A stretch of DNA of 64,000 nucleotides. Origin: Chloroflexota bacterium. Lineage in GTDB: Bacteria; Chloroflexota; Anaerolineae; Anaerolineales; Anaerolineaceae. The position numbers were made by a program, and so were the translations under genes. The stretch covers positions 1 to 64,000 of the forward strand of contig WOUT01000010.1 in NCBI GenBank assembly GCA_009773005.1. Direction: 5' to 3'. How positions within the stretch are numbered: position 1 is the first letter of the stretch; each line of letters begins with the position of its first letter. The notes beneath the pieces are model-generated. The model ran no database searches, was not told the origin of the DNA, and was given only the letters and a program-made list of their open reading frames with translations. Below, in pieces: positions 24,797-31,689 of this stretch.

Positions 24797-25153
24797 ATGA
24801 AAATCATCGCATTTATCGGATCTGGTCTTCTTATCCTGTTTGGGGCGTTAATGGCGCTTGGCGCAACTGATCCACGTAATGGTCAAATAATATGGCTTCC
24901 GATTGGATTGGTCATGATAGGCGTCGGATTGGTGATCATCTTCTTCGCAGCCCGCCGAAAAGCTGTTGGTACTATAACCAACGTGACGCTCAATGTCGAT
25001 TTACCTGGCAATGTCGCCATGGATGCGATGAAATGCAAATCCTGCGGTGGAGTTTTGTCAGCAGAAAATATCAGCATGGTTCAAGGCGCACCGATGGTCA
25101 CCTGCCCATTTTGTCACACTGTTTACCAGCTAACCGAAGAACCAAAGTGGTAG
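24797..25153 (+). CDS. Two-helix membrane protein with zinc ribbon
   Basis: The 118 residues have two membrane helices (about 3-22 and 31-52) and a C-terminal zinc ribbon with ligands MKCKSCGG and VTCPFCHT. No family was recognised. TAGGAGG precedes the ATG. The gene is 28 bases upstream of the protein with the Cys-Ala tail and is probably co-transcribed, so it may help handle metal or clusters for that system; this is only context. Confidence 0.75.
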   Translation: MKIIAFIGSGLLILFGALMALGATDPRNGQIIWLPIGLVMIGVGLVIIFFAARRKAVGTITNVTLNVDLPGNVAMDAMKCKSCGGVLSAENISMVQGAPMVTCPFCHTVYQLTEEPKW

Positions 25154-25181
25154 TAGCAACTATTTTTTTGGGAGGGTAGAA

Positions 25182-26900
25182 ATGAGATTTCTTAGATTTA
25201 CCTGCTTATTTTTTATCTTTATTATGCTTGCGGGCAGTGTTTCGCCCGCATATGCTCAAGCCTACCGTTTTCAAGTCCCCGAACAAGCCGTGGTAGTAAC
25301 AATTAATGTCGATGGCTCAATTGCCATAGATTACACGATGAAATTCCTGAATGGCCCGGGTGCGCACGCCATTGATATCGTCGATATCGGGCTGCCAAAC
25401 TATGAATATGAACTCAGGTCAATCAGCGGCGAAATTAATGGTCAGCCGATCACCAAGATCACAAATTCTGATATTGTTTCCCCCGGAATTTCGCTTTACT
25501 TGCAATCCAACGAGATCCCTGCCGGGGAGGCAGGTACAGTTCACGCTTACATCACCGCTGTAAAAAAGGTGATCTACCCTGCCACTCAAACAGAATCTGA
25601 AGATTACGCAAGCCTGGTTTTCTCTCCAAATTGGTATGACAGCGCCTATAGTCATGGGAACACGAACTATCAGGTGACCATCCTGCTTCCACCGGGCGTC
25701 AAAGACGGAGAAGCCCGTTACTTTATCCCAGAGAATTGGCCTGGTAGTAACGAACCTGAATCCAGGATCATGGATGATGGCCGGATTTTTTATACCTGGG
25801 TATCTGACCAAGCTAACACTTATACACAGTATAAATTTGGCGCCAGTTTTCCATCCCGGTATCTAAATGAAGGAGTCGTGGTTAAAGAACCCTATGTCCC
25901 ACCCTCCTCTTCGGGAAATAACGCAAGTTTTAATCTTGAAAGTCTCTGCCCATTCATTTTTTGTCTCGGATTTATTGGCTTTTTTGGATTGATTATTTAT
26001 TCAGCCACTGTCGGAGCAAAAAAACGAAAAATGCAGTACCTTCCTCCAAAAATATCGATGGAGGGTCACGGCGTCAAGCGCGGATTGACCTCAGTCGAAG
26101 CTGGTGTGCTGATGGAACAACCTATGGATAAGATTTTCACAATGATCTTGTTCGGGTTGATGAAAAAGAATGCCGCCCAAGTGGTTACAAAAGAACCATT
26201 GGATATTAATCCTGCCACACCGCTGCCGACCGATCTTTACGGTTATGAGACTGACTTTTTAGCAGCCTTTACAGAAAAACAAGCTGCTCCGAGACGCAAG
26301 CTGCTGCAAACCATGATGGTTAATCTCATCAAAAGCGTCGGAGAAAAAATGAAAGGCTTCAGCCGCAAAGAGACACTTGCCTTTTATGTAGATATCATGA
26401 AACGGGCTTGGACACAGGTTGAACAAGCCAACACTCCAGAAGTCAAAGCCCAGGTTTACGAAGAAGTGATGGATTGGACCATGCTCGACAAGAAATATGA
26501 CGACCGCACTCGCGATGTTTTCAGCGGACCAATGGTGGTGCCTGCTCCTTCCTGGTGGTGGCGGTATGATCCCACTTTTTCACGGTCAGTCCCTACCAGC
26601 ACAATTTCAACTGGCGCTACACCGCCTCCGCTATCAACCTTAGGCGGTAGAAGCATCTCCATGCCTACCATGCCAGGCTCTGCATTTGCCGCTTCTGTTG
26701 TAAATAGCGTCTCTTCATTCTCCTCAAATGTACTTGGCGGACTTTCAGGCTTTACAAGCGGCGTCACCAATGTGACGAATCCCCCACCTCCTCCATCAAC
26801 TTACAGGAGTTCCGGTGGCGGCTCGAGCGGCGGACGCTCTTGTGCATGTGCTTGCGCTTGTGCCGGCTGTGCCTGTGCTTGTGCTGGCGGCGGGAGATAA
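25182..26900 (+). CDS. DUF2207-like membrane protein with Cys-Ala tail
   Basis: The protein has 572 residues. A signal peptide (ending SPAYAQA) leads to a beta-rich extracytoplasmic domain (about 27-250), one membrane helix (about 254-277) followed by AKKRK (so the rest is cytoplasmic), and a helical domain of about 200 residues. A Pro/Ser/Gly linker follows, then the last 23 residues: GGRS, four Cys-Ala pairs, Gly, three Cys-Ala pairs, and GGGR. Cys and Ala codons vary within the tail, so selection is on protein, not DNA. The layout resembles DUF2207/TIGR04222-type membrane proteins, which can carry low-complexity Cys- or Gly-rich ends. Radical SAM genes follow directly, making the tail a candidate modification site. 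Confidence 0.8.
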   Translation: MRFLRFTCLFFIFIMLAGSVSPAYAQAYRFQVPEQAVVVTINVDGSIAIDYTMKFLNGPGAHAIDIVDIGLPNYEYELRSISGEINGQPITKITNSDIVSPGISLYLQSNEIPAGEAGTVHAYITAVKKVIYPATQTESEDYASLVFSPNWYDSAYSHGNTNYQVTILLPPGVKDGEARYFIPENWPGSNEPESRIMDDGRIFYTWVSDQANTYTQYKFGASFPSRYLNEGVVVKEPYVPPSSSGNNASFNLESLCPFIFCLGFIGFFGLIIYSATVGAKKRKMQYLPPKISMEGHGVKRGLTSVEAGVLMEQPMDKIFTMILFGLMKKNAAQVVTKEPLDINPATPLPTDLYGYETDFLAAFTEKQAAPRRKLLQTMMVNLIKSVGEKMKGFSRKETLAFYVDIMKRAWTQVEQANTPEVKAQVYEEVMDWTMLDKKYDDRTRDVFSGPMVVPAPSWWWRYDPTFSRSVPTSTISTGATPPPLSTLGGRSISMPTMPGSAFAASVVNSVSSFSSNVLGGLSGFTSGVTNVTNPPPPPSTYRSSGGGSSGGRSCACACACAGCACACAGGGR

Positions 26901-26915
26901 TCGCATCATTAATAT

Positions 26916-28247
26916 ATGAATCTGCTTGATCAATTCTCAGCACTAAAGAAACCCGCACCAACAGTTGCTTTACCTGTTGCTGGTGTGTATCACTTTCTAC
27001 GCGAATCTCCAGAAGAAAAATCTAGACTTCATCTCAGGGTTGATAAAGATGGCTCAGGGTTGCTAATCATTAATGCCAATCAGGTTTTCCAACTCAATCC
27101 GTCTGCTGCGGCGATGATGTTCTTCGCATTGAATGATATTCCGGTACAAACAGCGACCAACGCACTTCACAAATCTTTCAATGCGTCAAAATTTTCTATT
27201 GCCAATGATTATGCCGCAGTAAAAACTCAATTGGAAGCATTGGTGTCCAATGAAGCCTGTCCTATCTGTGAATTGGATATTGAAACCACCGCCCCGTTTT
27301 CCTCCACACCCTCCGCTCCTTACCGGATGGATTTGGCAGTCACCTATCGATGCAACAATGCCTGTGCCCATTGTTATAACGGGCGACCACGCAACTATCC
27401 GGAGCTCACAACAGAAGAGTGGTTTAAGATCCTCGACGAGCTATGGAAAATCGGTATCCCGCACATCGTTTTCACCGGTGGGGAACCAACCCTGCGAGAC
27501 GACCTTCCGGATTTGATCAGGCATGCCGAAAAAAACGGTCAGATCACGGGCATCAACACAAATGGCCGTCGCCTGAAAGACAAAAAATACGTTCAGCAGC
27601 TTATCGACGCCGGGCTCGATCACATCCAGATCACTTTTGAGTCTCATGCGCCCCAAATTCACGATCAAATGGTCTGCCATACCGGGGCGTGGCAAGAAAC
27701 CCTTGCCGGGCTTAAAAACGCCTTAAACTCCAAACTTTACGTCATGACCAATACCACCATGTTGACCGTGAATCGTTCATCCATTCCGGATACCATGGAG
27801 TTTTTAGGTGAGCTTGGCCTTAAAACGATTGGGTTGAATGCCTTGATCTATTCGGGTCATGGAAAAATGGTTGGAACAGGTCTCTCAGAAGGCGAATTGA
27901 CGCCTTTATTGAACTCAGCCCAAGTGATAACAACAAAATACAATCAGCGCCTGATCTGGTATACCCCGACCCAATATTGCAATTTTGATCCCGTTCAGAT
28001 GGGGTTGGGCGTCAAGGGTTGTACCGCTGCTTTATACAACATGTGCGTCGAACCGGACGGCGGGGTGATCCCATGCCAATCCTATTATCAAGCGCTGGGT
28101 AACATATTGACCGACCCCTGGGATAAGATATGGAATCATGATTTGGCTCTCTCCTTGAGAGAACGAAAAAAAATGCCCGAAAAATGTACCGGATGCTCTT
28201 TATTGACTGAATGCGGAGGCGGTTGTCCGCTTTCCTCGAATTTGTAA
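26916..28247 (+). CDS. Radical SAM/SPASM maturase with PqqD-like domain
   Basis: The protein has 443 residues. Residues about 20-112 look like a PqqD-type RiPP recognition element. The radical SAM core has the cluster motif at Cys146, Cys150 and Cys153 (YRCNNACAHCYNG) and GGEPTLR at 188-194. A SPASM-type C-terminus has further cysteines at about 366-385 and at 424, 427, 433 and 437 (CTGCSLLTECGGGC), suited to auxiliary Fe-S clusters. Such enzymes make thioether or C-C crosslinks in peptides. The gene starts 15 bases after the Cys-Ala tail gene. Substrate assignment is inferred from that neighbourhood. Confidence 0.88.
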   Translation: MNLLDQFSALKKPAPTVALPVAGVYHFLRESPEEKSRLHLRVDKDGSGLLIINANQVFQLNPSAAAMMFFALNDIPVQTATNALHKSFNASKFSIANDYAAVKTQLEALVSNEACPICELDIETTAPFSSTPSAPYRMDLAVTYRCNNACAHCYNGRPRNYPELTTEEWFKILDELWKIGIPHIVFTGGEPTLRDDLPDLIRHAEKNGQITGINTNGRRLKDKKYVQQLIDAGLDHIQITFESHAPQIHDQMVCHTGAWQETLAGLKNALNSKLYVMTNTTMLTVNRSSIPDTMEFLGELGLKTIGLNALIYSGHGKMVGTGLSEGELTPLLNSAQVITTKYNQRLIWYTPTQYCNFDPVQMGLGVKGCTAALYNMCVEPDGGVIPCQSYYQALGNILTDPWDKIWNHDLALSLRERKKMPEKCTGCSLLTECGGGCPLSSNL

Positions 28248-28274
28248 TGACTATTTAACCTTTCGGAGGGAAAA

Positions 28275-29450
28275 ATGAAAGCCAGGATCAATACATTCAT
28301 CAAAAACATTTTATACACGCCAAAACCATTACCTGTTGGCAATTATCAAGCTATTCTTAAAATTGATACGGGCCCGTCTTATCGCCTTCACCTCCGCATC
28401 GAAGATCATGGGCTGGGCACATTGATCCTCAATGCCAGTACGATAATGCATTTGAACACAACCGCAGCAGAATTTGCCTATCATCTCATCAAGCAAACTC
28501 CTGTCGAAACCGTGGTCGCTGAAGTCATGAAACGTTACCGAGTCACTCCTGAAGAAGCCGCACAGGATTTTCAAGATTTTAAAGACCGGCTGGAATCCTT
28601 GGTATCAACCCCAGACCTGGACCCTGAAACCTTCCTTAATATTGACCGTGTTGACCTGCATCAGCACAAAATGTCCGCGCCGCTCAGGTTGGATTGTGCG
28701 CTCACTTATCAGGTCAGCGAGGGCTCTGCAAGCGTTTATGCGCCTGTTGACCGGGTAAAACAGCTGCTTGACACCAAGGAATGGAAGCAGATCCTGAAAA
28801 ACGCCTGGGATGCGGGCATTCCGCATATCGTATTTACAGGCGGCGAACCAACCCTGCGCCCGGATGTACCGGAATTGATCACGTTTGCAGAGGAGCTTGG
28901 GCAGGTATCGGGCTTGATCACGGATGGAACCCGACTGAGCGAAAAAGACTATTTGCAACAATTATTGATGGCAGGTCTGGATCATCTGATGATCGTGCTT
29001 AATCCACAAAGCGAACAGTCTTGGGAAGCAGTTCGTGATCTAATCAACGAGGATATTTTCTTAACCGTCCACCTGACCCTGTCAAACAAGAATAAAAATG
29101 AATTTGATAAGATTCTGACTAAGTTGAATCAGTTCCAGATAAAATCCCTTTCATTGAGCGCCGAAACCCTGGAATTATGGAAATTGTTACCACAATACAC
29201 ACAAAAAGCAGTTGAGTTGGGATTTTCACTCGTCTGGGACCTGCCGGTTCCATATTCAGCGCTGAACCCGATCGCGCTTGAACTGGAATCACAGAATTCC
29301 ACGGTTGACGGTGCTGGTGCAAGCTGGCTTTATGTAGAACCCGATGGCGATATTCTTGCCGGACAAGGAATTCCGACAGTTCTGGGCAACTTCCTGACCG
29401 ATTCATGGCAAAAAATTTGGACGGAAGCCAAATTATTGAAATATGGTTAA
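28275..29450 (+). CDS. Degenerate radical SAM paralogue (no Fe-S cysteines)
   Basis: The 391 residues align with the preceding protein through the PqqD-like domain (about 22-112) and the core, including IPHIVFTGGEPTLR and a VEPDG segment. At the cluster site the three cysteines are Val147, Ser151 and Val154 (LTYQVSEGSASVYAP). The SPASM cysteines are also gone, and the C-terminal Cys-rich tail is absent. Only one Cys remains in the whole protein (Cys141). It cannot bind the usual 4Fe-4S cluster, yet it has an intact frame and a strong ribosome site (CGGAGGG). It probably serves as a scaffold or recognition partner for the active enzyme. Confidence 0.85.
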   Translation: MKARINTFIKNILYTPKPLPVGNYQAILKIDTGPSYRLHLRIEDHGLGTLILNASTIMHLNTTAAEFAYHLIKQTPVETVVAEVMKRYRVTPEEAAQDFQDFKDRLESLVSTPDLDPETFLNIDRVDLHQHKMSAPLRLDCALTYQVSEGSASVYAPVDRVKQLLDTKEWKQILKNAWDAGIPHIVFTGGEPTLRPDVPELITFAEELGQVSGLITDGTRLSEKDYLQQLLMAGLDHLMIVLNPQSEQSWEAVRDLINEDIFLTVHLTLSNKNKNEFDKILTKLNQFQIKSLSLSAETLELWKLLPQYTQKAVELGFSLVWDLPVPYSALNPIALELESQNSTVDGAGASWLYVEPDGDILAGQGIPTVLGNFLTDSWQKIWTEAKLLKYG

Positions 29451-30204
29451 TTCTTCCGAATCCGTGAACTGGCATAACCGGTTTGCCGTCCAATCTACAT
29501 GGACAAAACCGCTTCGGAATTTCCTATACAAGCAAATTGGGATCAACCAAAATTCCCGCATCCTTGAAGTTGGATGCGGGACTGGCGTGATTACATCCGA
29601 GTTGCATCAATTTACTTTTATGCCTGCAACTGGAATCGATCTGCAACACGATCGGTTAAGAATAGCAGCCAGGCAAGATGAATTTCAGCTTTATGTATGT
29701 GCGGATGCCTATTCCCTTCCATTCACAAAAAATTTGTTTGATTTTGTCCTGACCCATTTTTTCTTTTTGTGGGTACAAGATCCAATTTCCACCCTGGTTG
29801 AAATGCTGCGCGTCTTAAAACCCGGTGGATGGGTAATTGCATTGGCTGAGCCGGATTATTTGGCGCGGATTGACTCACCAGCAGAGTTTGATAAATTGGG
29901 GCAGATGCAGACACAAGCCCTTATTGCACAGGGAGCCAATCCTGCCAGCGGCAGATCACTCCCGCAAATATTTTCCAATGCCGGCGTAGAGGATATCCAA
30001 TACGGAATCTCAGGATTTCAAGTATCTCCGGTGCACATCCCTGATTGGTATGAATCTGAATGGAATATGTTAAGAGAAGATTTGGCTCATCTTCTTTCGG
30101 AAAATGAATTGGACCGGCTGCAGGAATTGGACTTGAAGGCAAGAAAATCGGGCTGCCGAGTCTTATGGATACCCACCTTCTATGCATACGGAAAAAAGTC
30201 CTGA
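29443..30204 (+). CDS. Class I SAM-dependent methyltransferase
   Basis: The 253 residues have the class I motifs: ILEVGCGTGVITSEL (motif I), TGIDLQHDRL, ADAYSLPF, and the late MLRVLKPGGWVIALAEPDY. It resembles small-molecule or ubiE-like methyltransferases, and the substrate is not evident. Its ATG overlaps the end of the degenerate radical SAM gene by eight bases, so translation is coupled and a shared pathway is likely. Confidence 0.88.
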   Translation: MVNSSESVNWHNRFAVQSTWTKPLRNFLYKQIGINQNSRILEVGCGTGVITSELHQFTFMPATGIDLQHDRLRIAARQDEFQLYVCADAYSLPFTKNLFDFVLTHFFFLWVQDPISTLVEMLRVLKPGGWVIALAEPDYLARIDSPAEFDKLGQMQTQALIAQGANPASGRSLPQIFSNAGVEDIQYGISGFQVSPVHIPDWYESEWNMLREDLAHLLSENELDRLQELDLKARKSGCRVLWIPTFYAYGKKS

Positions 30205-30275
30205 AGTTTTTATGACAAATTAAGTCAAATATCACTGTTTTGTTTTTTTTAGCAGGGTTATAATGGTGAAGCTGG

Positions 30276-30325
30276 CCAGAAAACTCATTGCAGCTAACGA
30301 CACGCCAAGTTTTCTGGTCTTTTTT
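30276..30325 (+). terminator. Intrinsic terminator in the MFS gene leader
   Basis: A perfect 10 bp stem (ccagaaaact with agttttctgg) with a 22-base loop is followed by tctttttt. It ends 24 bases before the MFS start. A TATAAT-like box at 30259-30264 lies just upstream, so it could end the previous operon or attenuate the transporter gene. Confidence 0.7.
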
Positions 30326-30348
30326 ATTATCTTTTTGTGGAGGGCTAC

Positions 30349-31689
30349 ATGCAGGGTACTCACAAGAAATCCGGTCGCACTCTATTCGCCTTGGGTCTTG
30401 GAAATCTGGTTGATTCCGGTGAAAGCCAATCAATGGGAGTCTTAACGCCAATAATTACTCAGATTTTTGGTGTCAATCTGGCATTGATTGGAATTATGGA
30501 AACCTTTCGAAGTATCACGCAAACCGTAAGCGCGCCTTTCTGGGGGTATGCGGCAGACAGGTGGTCCCGGAAAAAAGTGCTGTTTTTTGGGACAGGGATT
30601 TGGGGTATTTGGACAGTGCTTGTCGGGCTTATGCCTACCTTCCCCGGTTTAATGATCATACGCATTATTTCAGGTCTTGGATTGGGTTGTTTGATGCCCG
30701 CCACATTTTCCCTGTTGGGTGACCATTTCCCTCAAGAAAAACGTGGCCGCGCGATAGGACTGATCAGCCTGGTTGGTTTAATGGGAACAGTTATTGGGGT
30801 TATTGCACTTGGATTTGTGGCAACCGCGGAACTTTGGAAATGGGGATTCATTGGGCTAGGTATCGCGAGCATACTTACAGGTGTAGCAATTTGGATATTC
30901 GTTGAGGAACCAATCAGAGGGTCTTCCGAACCCGAACTACAAGGTATCATCACCAAAGCTGATGAACAACGTTATAAGATCAATGTCAAAGACATGCTTA
31001 GTACATTAAGAATCCCCACCATTTGGGCTGCAATCATCCAGGGCGTGACAGGTTCAATGCCCTGGGTTGTGATGAGCATTTTCTTGATCAACTGGATGGT
31101 AAACGAATTACATTTTACCAACGCGATTTCATTTTCTGACCCCAAAGGGAGTGCGCCATTAGTTTTTGCATTCGTCGTGATAGGCGCAGCAATTAGCAAC
31201 TTTGTTGGCGGAATTATCGGGGATTTTGCCGAGAAGAAAAACCCTAAATATGGCCGTACAATTATTGGTCAATTCTCGGTGTTTGTTGGGGTTCCCTTGA
31301 TGTTTGTTTTGATTAAATACGGCGCTCAAATGAGTTTTGGTTTGTTTTTAGGCTGGGCATTTATGACAGCCCTATTAGTCGGTTGGCCTGGCACTGGCGC
31401 CAAACAACCGATGATGCAGGCAGTTGTCTCACCAGAAAAACGTTCCAGCGCCTATTCTGTAGTTAACTTCATCGAAGGTGGTTTGTCTGCCTTTTCCAGC
31501 ATGATAGCCGGCGCTTTGTCTGTAAAAATTGGTCTGACGAACGCCCTTCTATGGACTATACCATTCCCCTGGATCATTTGCGGGATCGGATTCAGTATTT
31601 TTTACTTCACATATCCGAAAGACGCGGCAAAAATTCGCGCTCAAATGGCGAATCGCCGCGAAGAATTGATCACAGCACATCAAGGATAA
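30349..31689 (+). CDS. MFS transporter
   Basis: The protein has 446 residues with about 12 membrane helices. The MFS loop motif is present as WGYAADRWSRKKVLF between helices 2 and 3, and an acidic GEFAEKK-like loop (IIGDFAEKKNPKYGR) lies in the second half. It resembles sugar-phosphate or anion-type permeases, but the substrate is unknown. GTG 30337 is also in frame, but GGAGGG lies five bases before ATG 30349, which is preferred. It may export a product of the upstream island or be unrelated. Confidence 0.88.
   Translation: MQGTHKKSGRTLFALGLGNLVDSGESQSMGVLTPIITQIFGVNLALIGIMETFRSITQTVSAPFWGYAADRWSRKKVLFFGTGIWGIWTVLVGLMPTFPGLMIIRIISGLGLGCLMPATFSLLGDHFPQEKRGRAIGLISLVGLMGTVIGVIALGFVATAELWKWGFIGLGIASILTGVAIWIFVEEPIRGSSEPELQGIITKADEQRYKINVKDMLSTLRIPTIWAAIIQGVTGSMPWVVMSIFLINWMVNELHFTNAISFSDPKGSAPLVFAFVVIGAAISNFVGGIIGDFAEKKNPKYGRTIIGQFSVFVGVPLMFVLIKYGAQMSFGLFLGWAFMTALLVGWPGTGAKQPMMQAVVSPEKRSSAYSVVNFIEGGLSAFSSMIAGALSVKIGLTNALLWTIPFPWIICGIGFSIFYFTYPKDAAKIRAQMANRREELITAHQG

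Follow-up and report, generated by a model that had tools for sequence, protein, structure and literature searches.

A candidate radical SAM system for the Cys-Ala tail of a membrane protein in Chloroflexota, Armatimonadota and Asgard archaea

Gene organization of the locus

The 64,000-nucleotide stretch analyzed here (positions 1 to 64,000 of contig WOUT01000010.1, forward strand, from the Chloroflexota assembly GCA_009773005.1; hereafter the window) contains a tight operon of five plus-strand genes at 24797-30204. In order, these encode a zinc-ribbon-like membrane protein (ZR), a large membrane protein ending in a Cys-Ala tail (TAIL), a radical S-adenosylmethionine (SAM) enzyme with a SPASM region (RS), a cluster-less paralogue of RS (PS), and a methyltransferase (MT) (Table 1). 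The first four genes are separated by 28, 15, and 27 bp, PS and MT overlap by 8 bp, and 132 bp lie between MT and a gene for a major facilitator superfamily (MFS) transporter. An earlier reading of the DNA made without database searches (the sequence-only reading) had proposed these five genes as a set, and both the open reading frames (ORFs) and the domain searches agree. We consider it likely that the operon is a protein-maturation system in which RS modifies the cytoplasmic tail of TAIL in place, most likely by forming Cys thioether links.

Table 1. Features of the operon and its downstream neighbour in the window.
Feature	Position	Strand	Basis or remark
ZR: first operon gene, zinc-ribbon-like membrane protein	24797..25153	+	ORF, sequence
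TAIL: membrane protein, 572 aa	25182..26900	+	ORF, structure model
Cys-Ala tail CACACACAGCACACAGGGR, residues 554-572, proposed modification site	26841..26897	+	sequence
RS: radical SAM/SPASM protein, 443 aa, N-terminal RRE-like domain, proposed tail-modifying enzyme	26916..28247	+	
RS CX3CX2C motif (C146, C150, C153)	27351..27374	+	invariant in 36 aligned RS
RS SPASM region; C369, C387, C424, C427, C433, C437 invariant in alignment	28020..28226	+	
PS: cluster-less RS paralogue, PqqD-like domain, possible substrate-binding partner	28275..29450	+	
MT: class I SAM methyltransferase	29443..30204	+	domain search
MFS transporter gene	30337..31689	+	neighbour, outside the system

The membrane protein and its tail

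The structure model of TAIL consists of a signal helix, a β-rich ectodomain (residues ~27-236), a transmembrane (TM) segment (~252-284, with a helix modelled at 265-284), a helical domain, and a Gly/Ser linker leading into the Cys-Ala tail. The C-terminal end reads SCACACACAGCACACAGGGR, and model confidence is low there (predicted local distance difference test score, pLDDT, <50 from residue 544). Because the residues that follow the TM helix (AKKRKMQ) are basic, the tail is predicted to lie in the cytoplasm, on the same side of the membrane as RS; the sequence-only reading had also placed it there. The TAIL alignment contains a conserved segment, LPG.DFAAS...TNP, upstream of the tail.

The tail is far more constant than the rest of the protein, with a mean majority-residue frequency of 0.95 versus 0.48 in the body. 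Across 153 distinct TAIL genes from bacteria and archaea, a set that pools motif-found and homology-found genes and is confined to ORFs ending in GGGR and distinct over the final 120 residues, there are 153 DNA sequences and four amino-acid forms of the last 14 codons. The number of CA units varies (4+3 in 87/153; otherwise 5+3, 3+4, 3+3, 2+4, or unbroken runs), and the Cys/Ala alternation and the GGGR end are constant across these variants; the seven Cys kept in the tail are matched in invariance by several Ala and by the GGG end. The same holds for proteins recovered by whole-protein search rather than by motif: the sequence CACACAGGGR ends 30/30 TAIL in loci L002-L031 (the window's own included) and 31/31 full-length tail ends in L103-L142, a count that leaves out fragments cut off by a contig end or a frame break (L105, the N-terminal piece of L113, L118, and L119), tail-less short paralogues (L109, L110, and L112), and ectodomain-only proteins (L116 and L117). 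Since the Cys-Ala pattern occurs in this gene alone in the window's own genome and a reversed control gave 0 matches, it is more than a product of chance; each of 17/17 genomes from other groups, picked for holding TAIL, has exactly one CACACAGGG site. Hairpin arithmetic on five tail forms places Cys opposite Ala across the central Gly (or opposite Gly/Arg past the shorter arm), an idea only, because any alternating string with one extra residue would show it.

L088 and L096-L099 (Krumholzibacteria, Aminicenantes, and archaea) carry a third tail form, which is broken by CVSC and has a CACACACAGGG stretch that continues into further residues; in part it stands on much smaller proteins, of ~320 aa (L097-L099).

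Fold matches to TAIL cover the ectodomain only. The ectodomain model (25260-25889) aligns with residues 227-443 of Ost1/ribophorin I (Z 17.0 over 185 residues; root-mean-square deviation, rmsd, 2.7); Ost1 homologues have been reported in Asgard archaea (PMC10307638), and Pfam searches of TAIL proteins gave no row for the Ribophorin_I family. The TAIL profile had no match up to E 1 among the sequences of solved structures. TAIL falls below every Pfam and NCBIfam cut-off in the searches made; thus, annotated genomes likely hide this protein. Two proteins of relatives (L116:2445-5144 and L117:1969-4971; 900-1001 aa) have only the TAIL ectodomain in common with it, and their other C-terminal domains look, by eye, formylglycine-generating-enzyme-like and β-propeller-like.

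The radical SAM enzyme

The window's RS matches the Pfam families Radical_SAM (E 4e-30) and SPASM (E 3e-9), both of which were identified in 36/36 members of the RS family; the three Cys of the CX3CX2C motif are invariant in all 36, and so are six further Cys in the SPASM region. The PqqD-like domain that the sequence-only reading had assigned to RS is borne out at the level of the family, with a Pfam PqqD match in 20/36 members (E 0.01), and not for the window's own RS, in which Pfam reports no PqqD domain. The N-terminal domain of RS is RRE-like, and the AlphaFold2 model (pLDDT 89.9) folds residues 23-110 as strands followed by three helices. The best fold matches are SkfB (Z 28.6 over 351 residues, rmsd 3.9; RS residues 36-439) and SuiB (Z 27.9; residues 27-443), apart from which RS residues before 114 are scarcely covered in the fold search; CteB (Z 25.6; residues 132-443) and anSME (Z 26.0; residues 133-443) match the core only, without the RRE. 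RS does not belong to any known radical SAM equivalog among the best 25 of the 75 NCBIfam models compared, scoring below every cut-off; against PqqE, NirJ, AhbC/AhbD, and the mycofactocin maturase (MftC) it reaches at most 126 bits (cut-offs 265-650).

Thioethers are our first choice of product because the closest folds are those of thioether-forming or cross-linking enzymes, and because Ala is a known acceptor in two sactipeptides, ruminococcin C1 (Cys5-Ala12) and Trn-β (Cys9-Ala25) (PMC8172795); terms for an Ala acceptor were not found in PMC8188230. Alternatively, RS might modify the tail by another radical reaction, such as epimerization of alternate residues to give an L/D strand, or the formation of C-C or S-C-β links in place of S-C-α thioethers. 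We regard this as unlikely: the strict alternation of residues in the tail would suit it, and the RS model aligns with the SPASM epimerase EpeE (Z 18.8) as well as with the cross-linking SuiB, but SkfB and SuiB stand ~10 Z above EpeE, the EpeE alignment rows start at residue 124 or later and so lack the RRE-like part, and seven kept Cys would exceed the needs of an epimerase.

Co-occurrence of the enzyme and the tail

Co-occurrence was examined in four genome sets, many of whose members are metagenome-assembled genomes: 101 relatives, 301 Chloroflexota, 195 Asgard, and 251 Armatimonadota. RS matches of ~160-205 bits, which mostly start at profile position 109-138 and lack the RRE-like part, were taken as other SPASM families and left out of the counts; from the Asgard counts, matches of 158-204 bits and RS pieces in G416 and G536 were dropped.

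Among the relatives, 74 genomes have both RS and TAIL, three have TAIL only (G008, G038, and G091), two have RS only (G095 and G100), and 22 have neither (Fisher p 6e-17, a value that ignores kinship and is inflated by it); a whole-protein search finds TAIL in 77/101. The TAIL match of G008 is an ectodomain-only protein, and TAIL of G038 is cut by a contig end. RS scores above 650 bits in 20 of the Chloroflexota genomes, and all 20/20 carry the tail motif; a further motif match in this set (G268) was discarded, as the stretch gave neither an RS nor a TAIL match. The Asgard set has RS of at least 500 bits in 36 genomes and the motif in 32, with both in 30; the motif-only genomes are G425 and G536, the latter with RS pieces. 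The corresponding numbers for Armatimonadota are 33, 39, and 32: in the single genome with RS and no motif (G669), the contig ends within TAIL (L257), and the seven with the motif and no such RS include three with RS pieces (G752, G768, and G813) and four that hold true TAIL genes (G633, G716, G760, and G795). At the level of loci, 57 of the 68 stretches L032-L099, which include those of the isolates Leptolinea sp. HRD-7 and Ornatilinea apprima (L037 and L038), contain an RS with its own CX3CX2C motif, four are cut, and seven show no RS. Many exceptions to the pairing are contig ends, or genomes in which the tail is encoded elsewhere.

The sequence-only reading had suggested a search for conserved co-occurrence across Anaerolineae; the pairing stands, and the limit to that group proved too narrow, as it extends to Asgard archaea and Armatimonadota. 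That reading also named RS genes regularly found without the tail gene as the observation that would undo it, and the four genome sets did not reveal such a regularity. Because RS almost always occurs with the tail protein, in bacteria as well as in Asgard archaea, the Cys-Ala tail is very probably what RS chemically rebuilds. We give very little weight to co-occurrence without an enzyme-substrate link, in which both genes would be parts of an operon for membrane stress and the tail would be kept for another reason, for example as a targeting or degradation signal. TAIL and RS are encoded apart in some genomes (f9; Asgard G433, G454, and G568), as this explanation would allow, but genomes that separate them still hold both, the pair is seen repeatedly in bacteria and in archaea, and the tail and the RS clade change as a pair.

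A second enzyme clade and ACHS tails

RS proteins that score 290-380 bits with the profile of the enzymes paired with Cys-Ala (CACA) tails form a separate clade of 23 rows (SH-like approximate likelihood-ratio test, SH-aLRT, 100) drawn from three phyla, namely Chloroflexota, Asgard, and Armatimonadota; the tree has 88 rows and was built by a quick method with midpoint rooting, and a 75-row tree gave the same clade. Adjoining these enzymes are membrane proteins homologous to TAIL, with a distant likeness to DUF2207/TIGR04222 proteins, that carry ACHS-repeat tails (L164, L166, L223, L224, L226-L231, L246, and L248-L256). An ACHS protein lies beside the second-clade RS in 2/2 Chloroflexota loci, in 8/9 Asgard loci (L223-L231; in L230 it is a 116-aa piece), and in 10/12 Armatimonadota loci, where there are at least two repeat variants and the stretches of L245 and L247 are without it. 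The Asgard stretch that lacks the protein is L225, and its genome (G456) has one ~6.6 kb away. By protein search, the ACHS protein is present in 27/29 Asgard genomes with a second-clade RS; the other two are the genome of L230 (G596) and G517, whose L262 contains an N-terminal piece. An ACHS protein without RS is present in three more Asgard genomes. Since the second RS clade adjoins homologous proteins with an ACHS tail, RS clade and tail type change together. None of the Asgard genomes carries both kinds.

On one Asgard contig (G560:C572:2480-5129), a CACA tail motif is followed downstream by two RS genes in tandem, which score 393 and 536 bits.

The joint change of enzyme and tail also bears on the possibility that the tail binds a metal or a cluster without being modified, all its Cys lying along one side of a strand, and that RS acts on another product of the pathway. 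CXC-rich strings such as metallothioneins bind soft metals, and a zinc-ribbon-like protein is encoded beside the tail gene. Cys-rich proteins modified by MNIO enzymes have, moreover, been linked to copper handling (PMC12452194). We nevertheless find this explanation improbable: RS clade and tail type switch together in three phyla, RS bears an RRE-like domain, and the several Ala and the GGG end that are as invariant as the Cys would be needless for metal binding alone.

Companion genes

ZR is hydrophobic in two places, around residues 1-23 and 29-59, and has a C-terminal CX2C...CX2C arrangement; its matches to zinc-ribbon families in the domain library search were all below cut-off. A ZR homologue was identified in 51 of the 68 loci L032-L099, and CX2C[G/A]..CX2C is present in 108/113 ZR matches, some of which are the same gene in two loci.

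The description of PS as a cluster-less paralogue with a PqqD-like domain is confirmed: PS matches Pfam PqqD (E 5.7e-7), and the CX3CX2C motif is absent from all 55 PS ORFs examined (0/55, some being the same gene in two loci). The paralogue is present in 36/68 loci, and because these include Armatimonadota-type loci, an active enzyme with a silent partner is a recurrent arrangement.

An MT homologue is present in 42/68 loci. MT adjoins RS in 8/8 loci of the Asgard CACA clade (L232-L239), in which TAIL was not found beside RS, and neither MT nor ZR had a match in the 23 ACHS-clade loci (L164, L166, L223-L231, and L245-L256; phmmer, E 1e-3). For these reasons, MT seems to belong with the CACA enzyme rather than with the membrane protein.

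The MFS gene, which the sequence-only reading had included in a system spanning 24797-31689, is not conserved, and the system therefore ends at 30204: with flanks of ~6 kb, or up to the contig ends, loci L014-L099 gave a single weak MFS match (L083, 24 bits).

Proposed mechanism

We propose that TAIL would span the membrane, exposing its ectodomain to the outside and keeping the helical domain and the Cys-Ala tail in the cytoplasm. RS would dock on TAIL via the RRE-like domain, plausibly at the LPG.DFAAS...TNP segment before the tail, perhaps assisted by PS where PS exists, and would carry out radical chemistry on the (CA)n tail while the latter is still attached to the membrane protein. The product would most likely be intramolecular thioethers, from Cys sulfur to Ala carbon, in a hairpin turning at the central Gly; such links would stiffen the tail or give a metal- or redox-active terminus. 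MT, as a companion of RS, may methylate the tail or an intermediate, and the roles of ZR and PS are likewise putative. As for physiology, our guess is a membrane sensor or a metal/redox protein. The conservation of the tail from Chloroflexota to Asgard archaea would point to a general cellular role and not to warfare.

Several observations weigh against this interpretation. The RS fold is common to anSME, PqqE, and the epimerase EpeE, and thus does not fix the chemistry; for the acceptor residue, AlbA is described as refusing Ala at three acceptor sites (PMC8172795). The motif is missing from 6/36 Asgard genomes with RS of at least 500 bits: in G592 and G448 the RS lies at a contig end, and in G460, G441, G465, and G509 it does not, so that these four stay unexplained. 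Among L032-L099, which were partly collected by the CACACACA pattern and hence cannot count alone, no RS is in the stretch of L047, L066, L068, L074, L082, L086, or L089 (several being short contigs), and L043, L053, L059, and L099 are cut. In family f9 (L109-L112), the neighbour of RS and MT is a TAIL-like protein that has no tail, and the CACA TAIL is elsewhere, with PS. Lastly, both enzyme clades are present in G110 (Chloroflexota) and G787 (Armatimonadota), and the two kinds are therefore not mutually exclusive.

In L109, L110, L112, and L061:8932-9960, RS adjoins a protein of 306-343 aa that is related to TAIL in its TM and cytoplasmic portions and has no tail; MT is close by, and the CACA TAIL is encoded apart from them, together with PS.

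A more far-reaching version of the thioether interpretation, which we advance tentatively and which may well not hold, is that this is an ancient post-translational modification common to bacteria and archaea. In this version, RS would turn a strictly conserved (Cys-Ala)n tail, while it remains part of the membrane protein, into a laddered thioether hairpin that serves as a built-in cofactor or as a metal/redox terminus; there would be two or more tail codes, CACA and ACHS among them, and a separate enzyme clade would read each.

Comparison with known systems

No description of the RS-tail pair was found in the open-licence literature, judged by titles and the beginnings of abstracts. The nearest systems by enzyme are those of SkfB and CteB, which are described as sactisynthases in PMC6231123, where RRE domains are said to bind leader sequences. 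RS has the same order of RRE, radical SAM, and SPASM parts, these enzymes are its best fold and profile matches, and in both cases a Cys-rich target is encoded alongside the enzyme. Unlike the small peptides on which those enzymes act, the proposed target here is the C-terminal tail of a membrane protein of ~570 aa, and this tail hardly varies between bacteria and archaea; the conserved partner is not a short precursor peptide, being a membrane protein of ~500-730 aa, with a 320-aa form in L097-L099. Radical SAM peptide chemistry would thus extend beyond small peptides to a large membrane protein with a fixed tail, and the (Cys-Ala)n and ACHS codes would offer a natural substrate-swap series for the residue choice of SPASM enzymes.

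Two other SPASM systems are comparable in part. RS resembles anSME, which acts on a protein and oxidizes a single residue, in being a SPASM enzyme, and differs from it in that the match is without the RRE-like part. The ACGX-system radical SAM/SPASM protein TIGR04340 is likewise named after a four-residue Cys-containing motif, and its partner carries ACGX repeats. Two ACHS-clade RS score 91.6 and 97.4 bits with TIGR04340 and the L088 RS scores 61.2, far below the cut-off of 400; on the ACHS-clade RS the match leaves out the RRE-like part, starting only at residue 121 or 137, and TIGR04340 is not among the matches of the window's RS (best 25 of 75 models).

Among membrane proteins, the closest parallel is provided by the TIGR04222 proteins that are associated with MNIO (DUF692) enzymes. 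According to PMC12452194, these proteins too are large, lie in the membrane, and end in low-complexity tails that contain Cys, and a putative modifying enzyme is encoded next to them; they have been proposed as MNIO substrates, and a third of the genomes that have them are without an MNIO. Their tails are Ser/Gly-rich with interspersed Cys, and more than a quarter have no C-proximal Cys (PMC12452194), whereas the tail described here is a fixed repeat, predicted to be cytoplasmic, and its partner is a radical SAM protein rather than an MNIO. At the sequence level, 5/45 TAIL match TIGR04222 (best E 1.6e-4) and two ACHS TAIL score 16.2 and 22.8 bits, below the cut-off of 43; the window's TAIL has no match to this model. 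Another faint similarity is to DUF2207: the ACHS TAIL of L227 matches DUF2207 (12.2 bits; cut-off 24.4) and DUF2207_C (18.7 bits; cut-off 33) in order, and 0/45 CACA TAIL match DUF2207 at E 0.01. By analogy, the system described here may be a radical SAM counterpart of TIGR04222/MNIO, with a tighter pairing of enzyme and tail.

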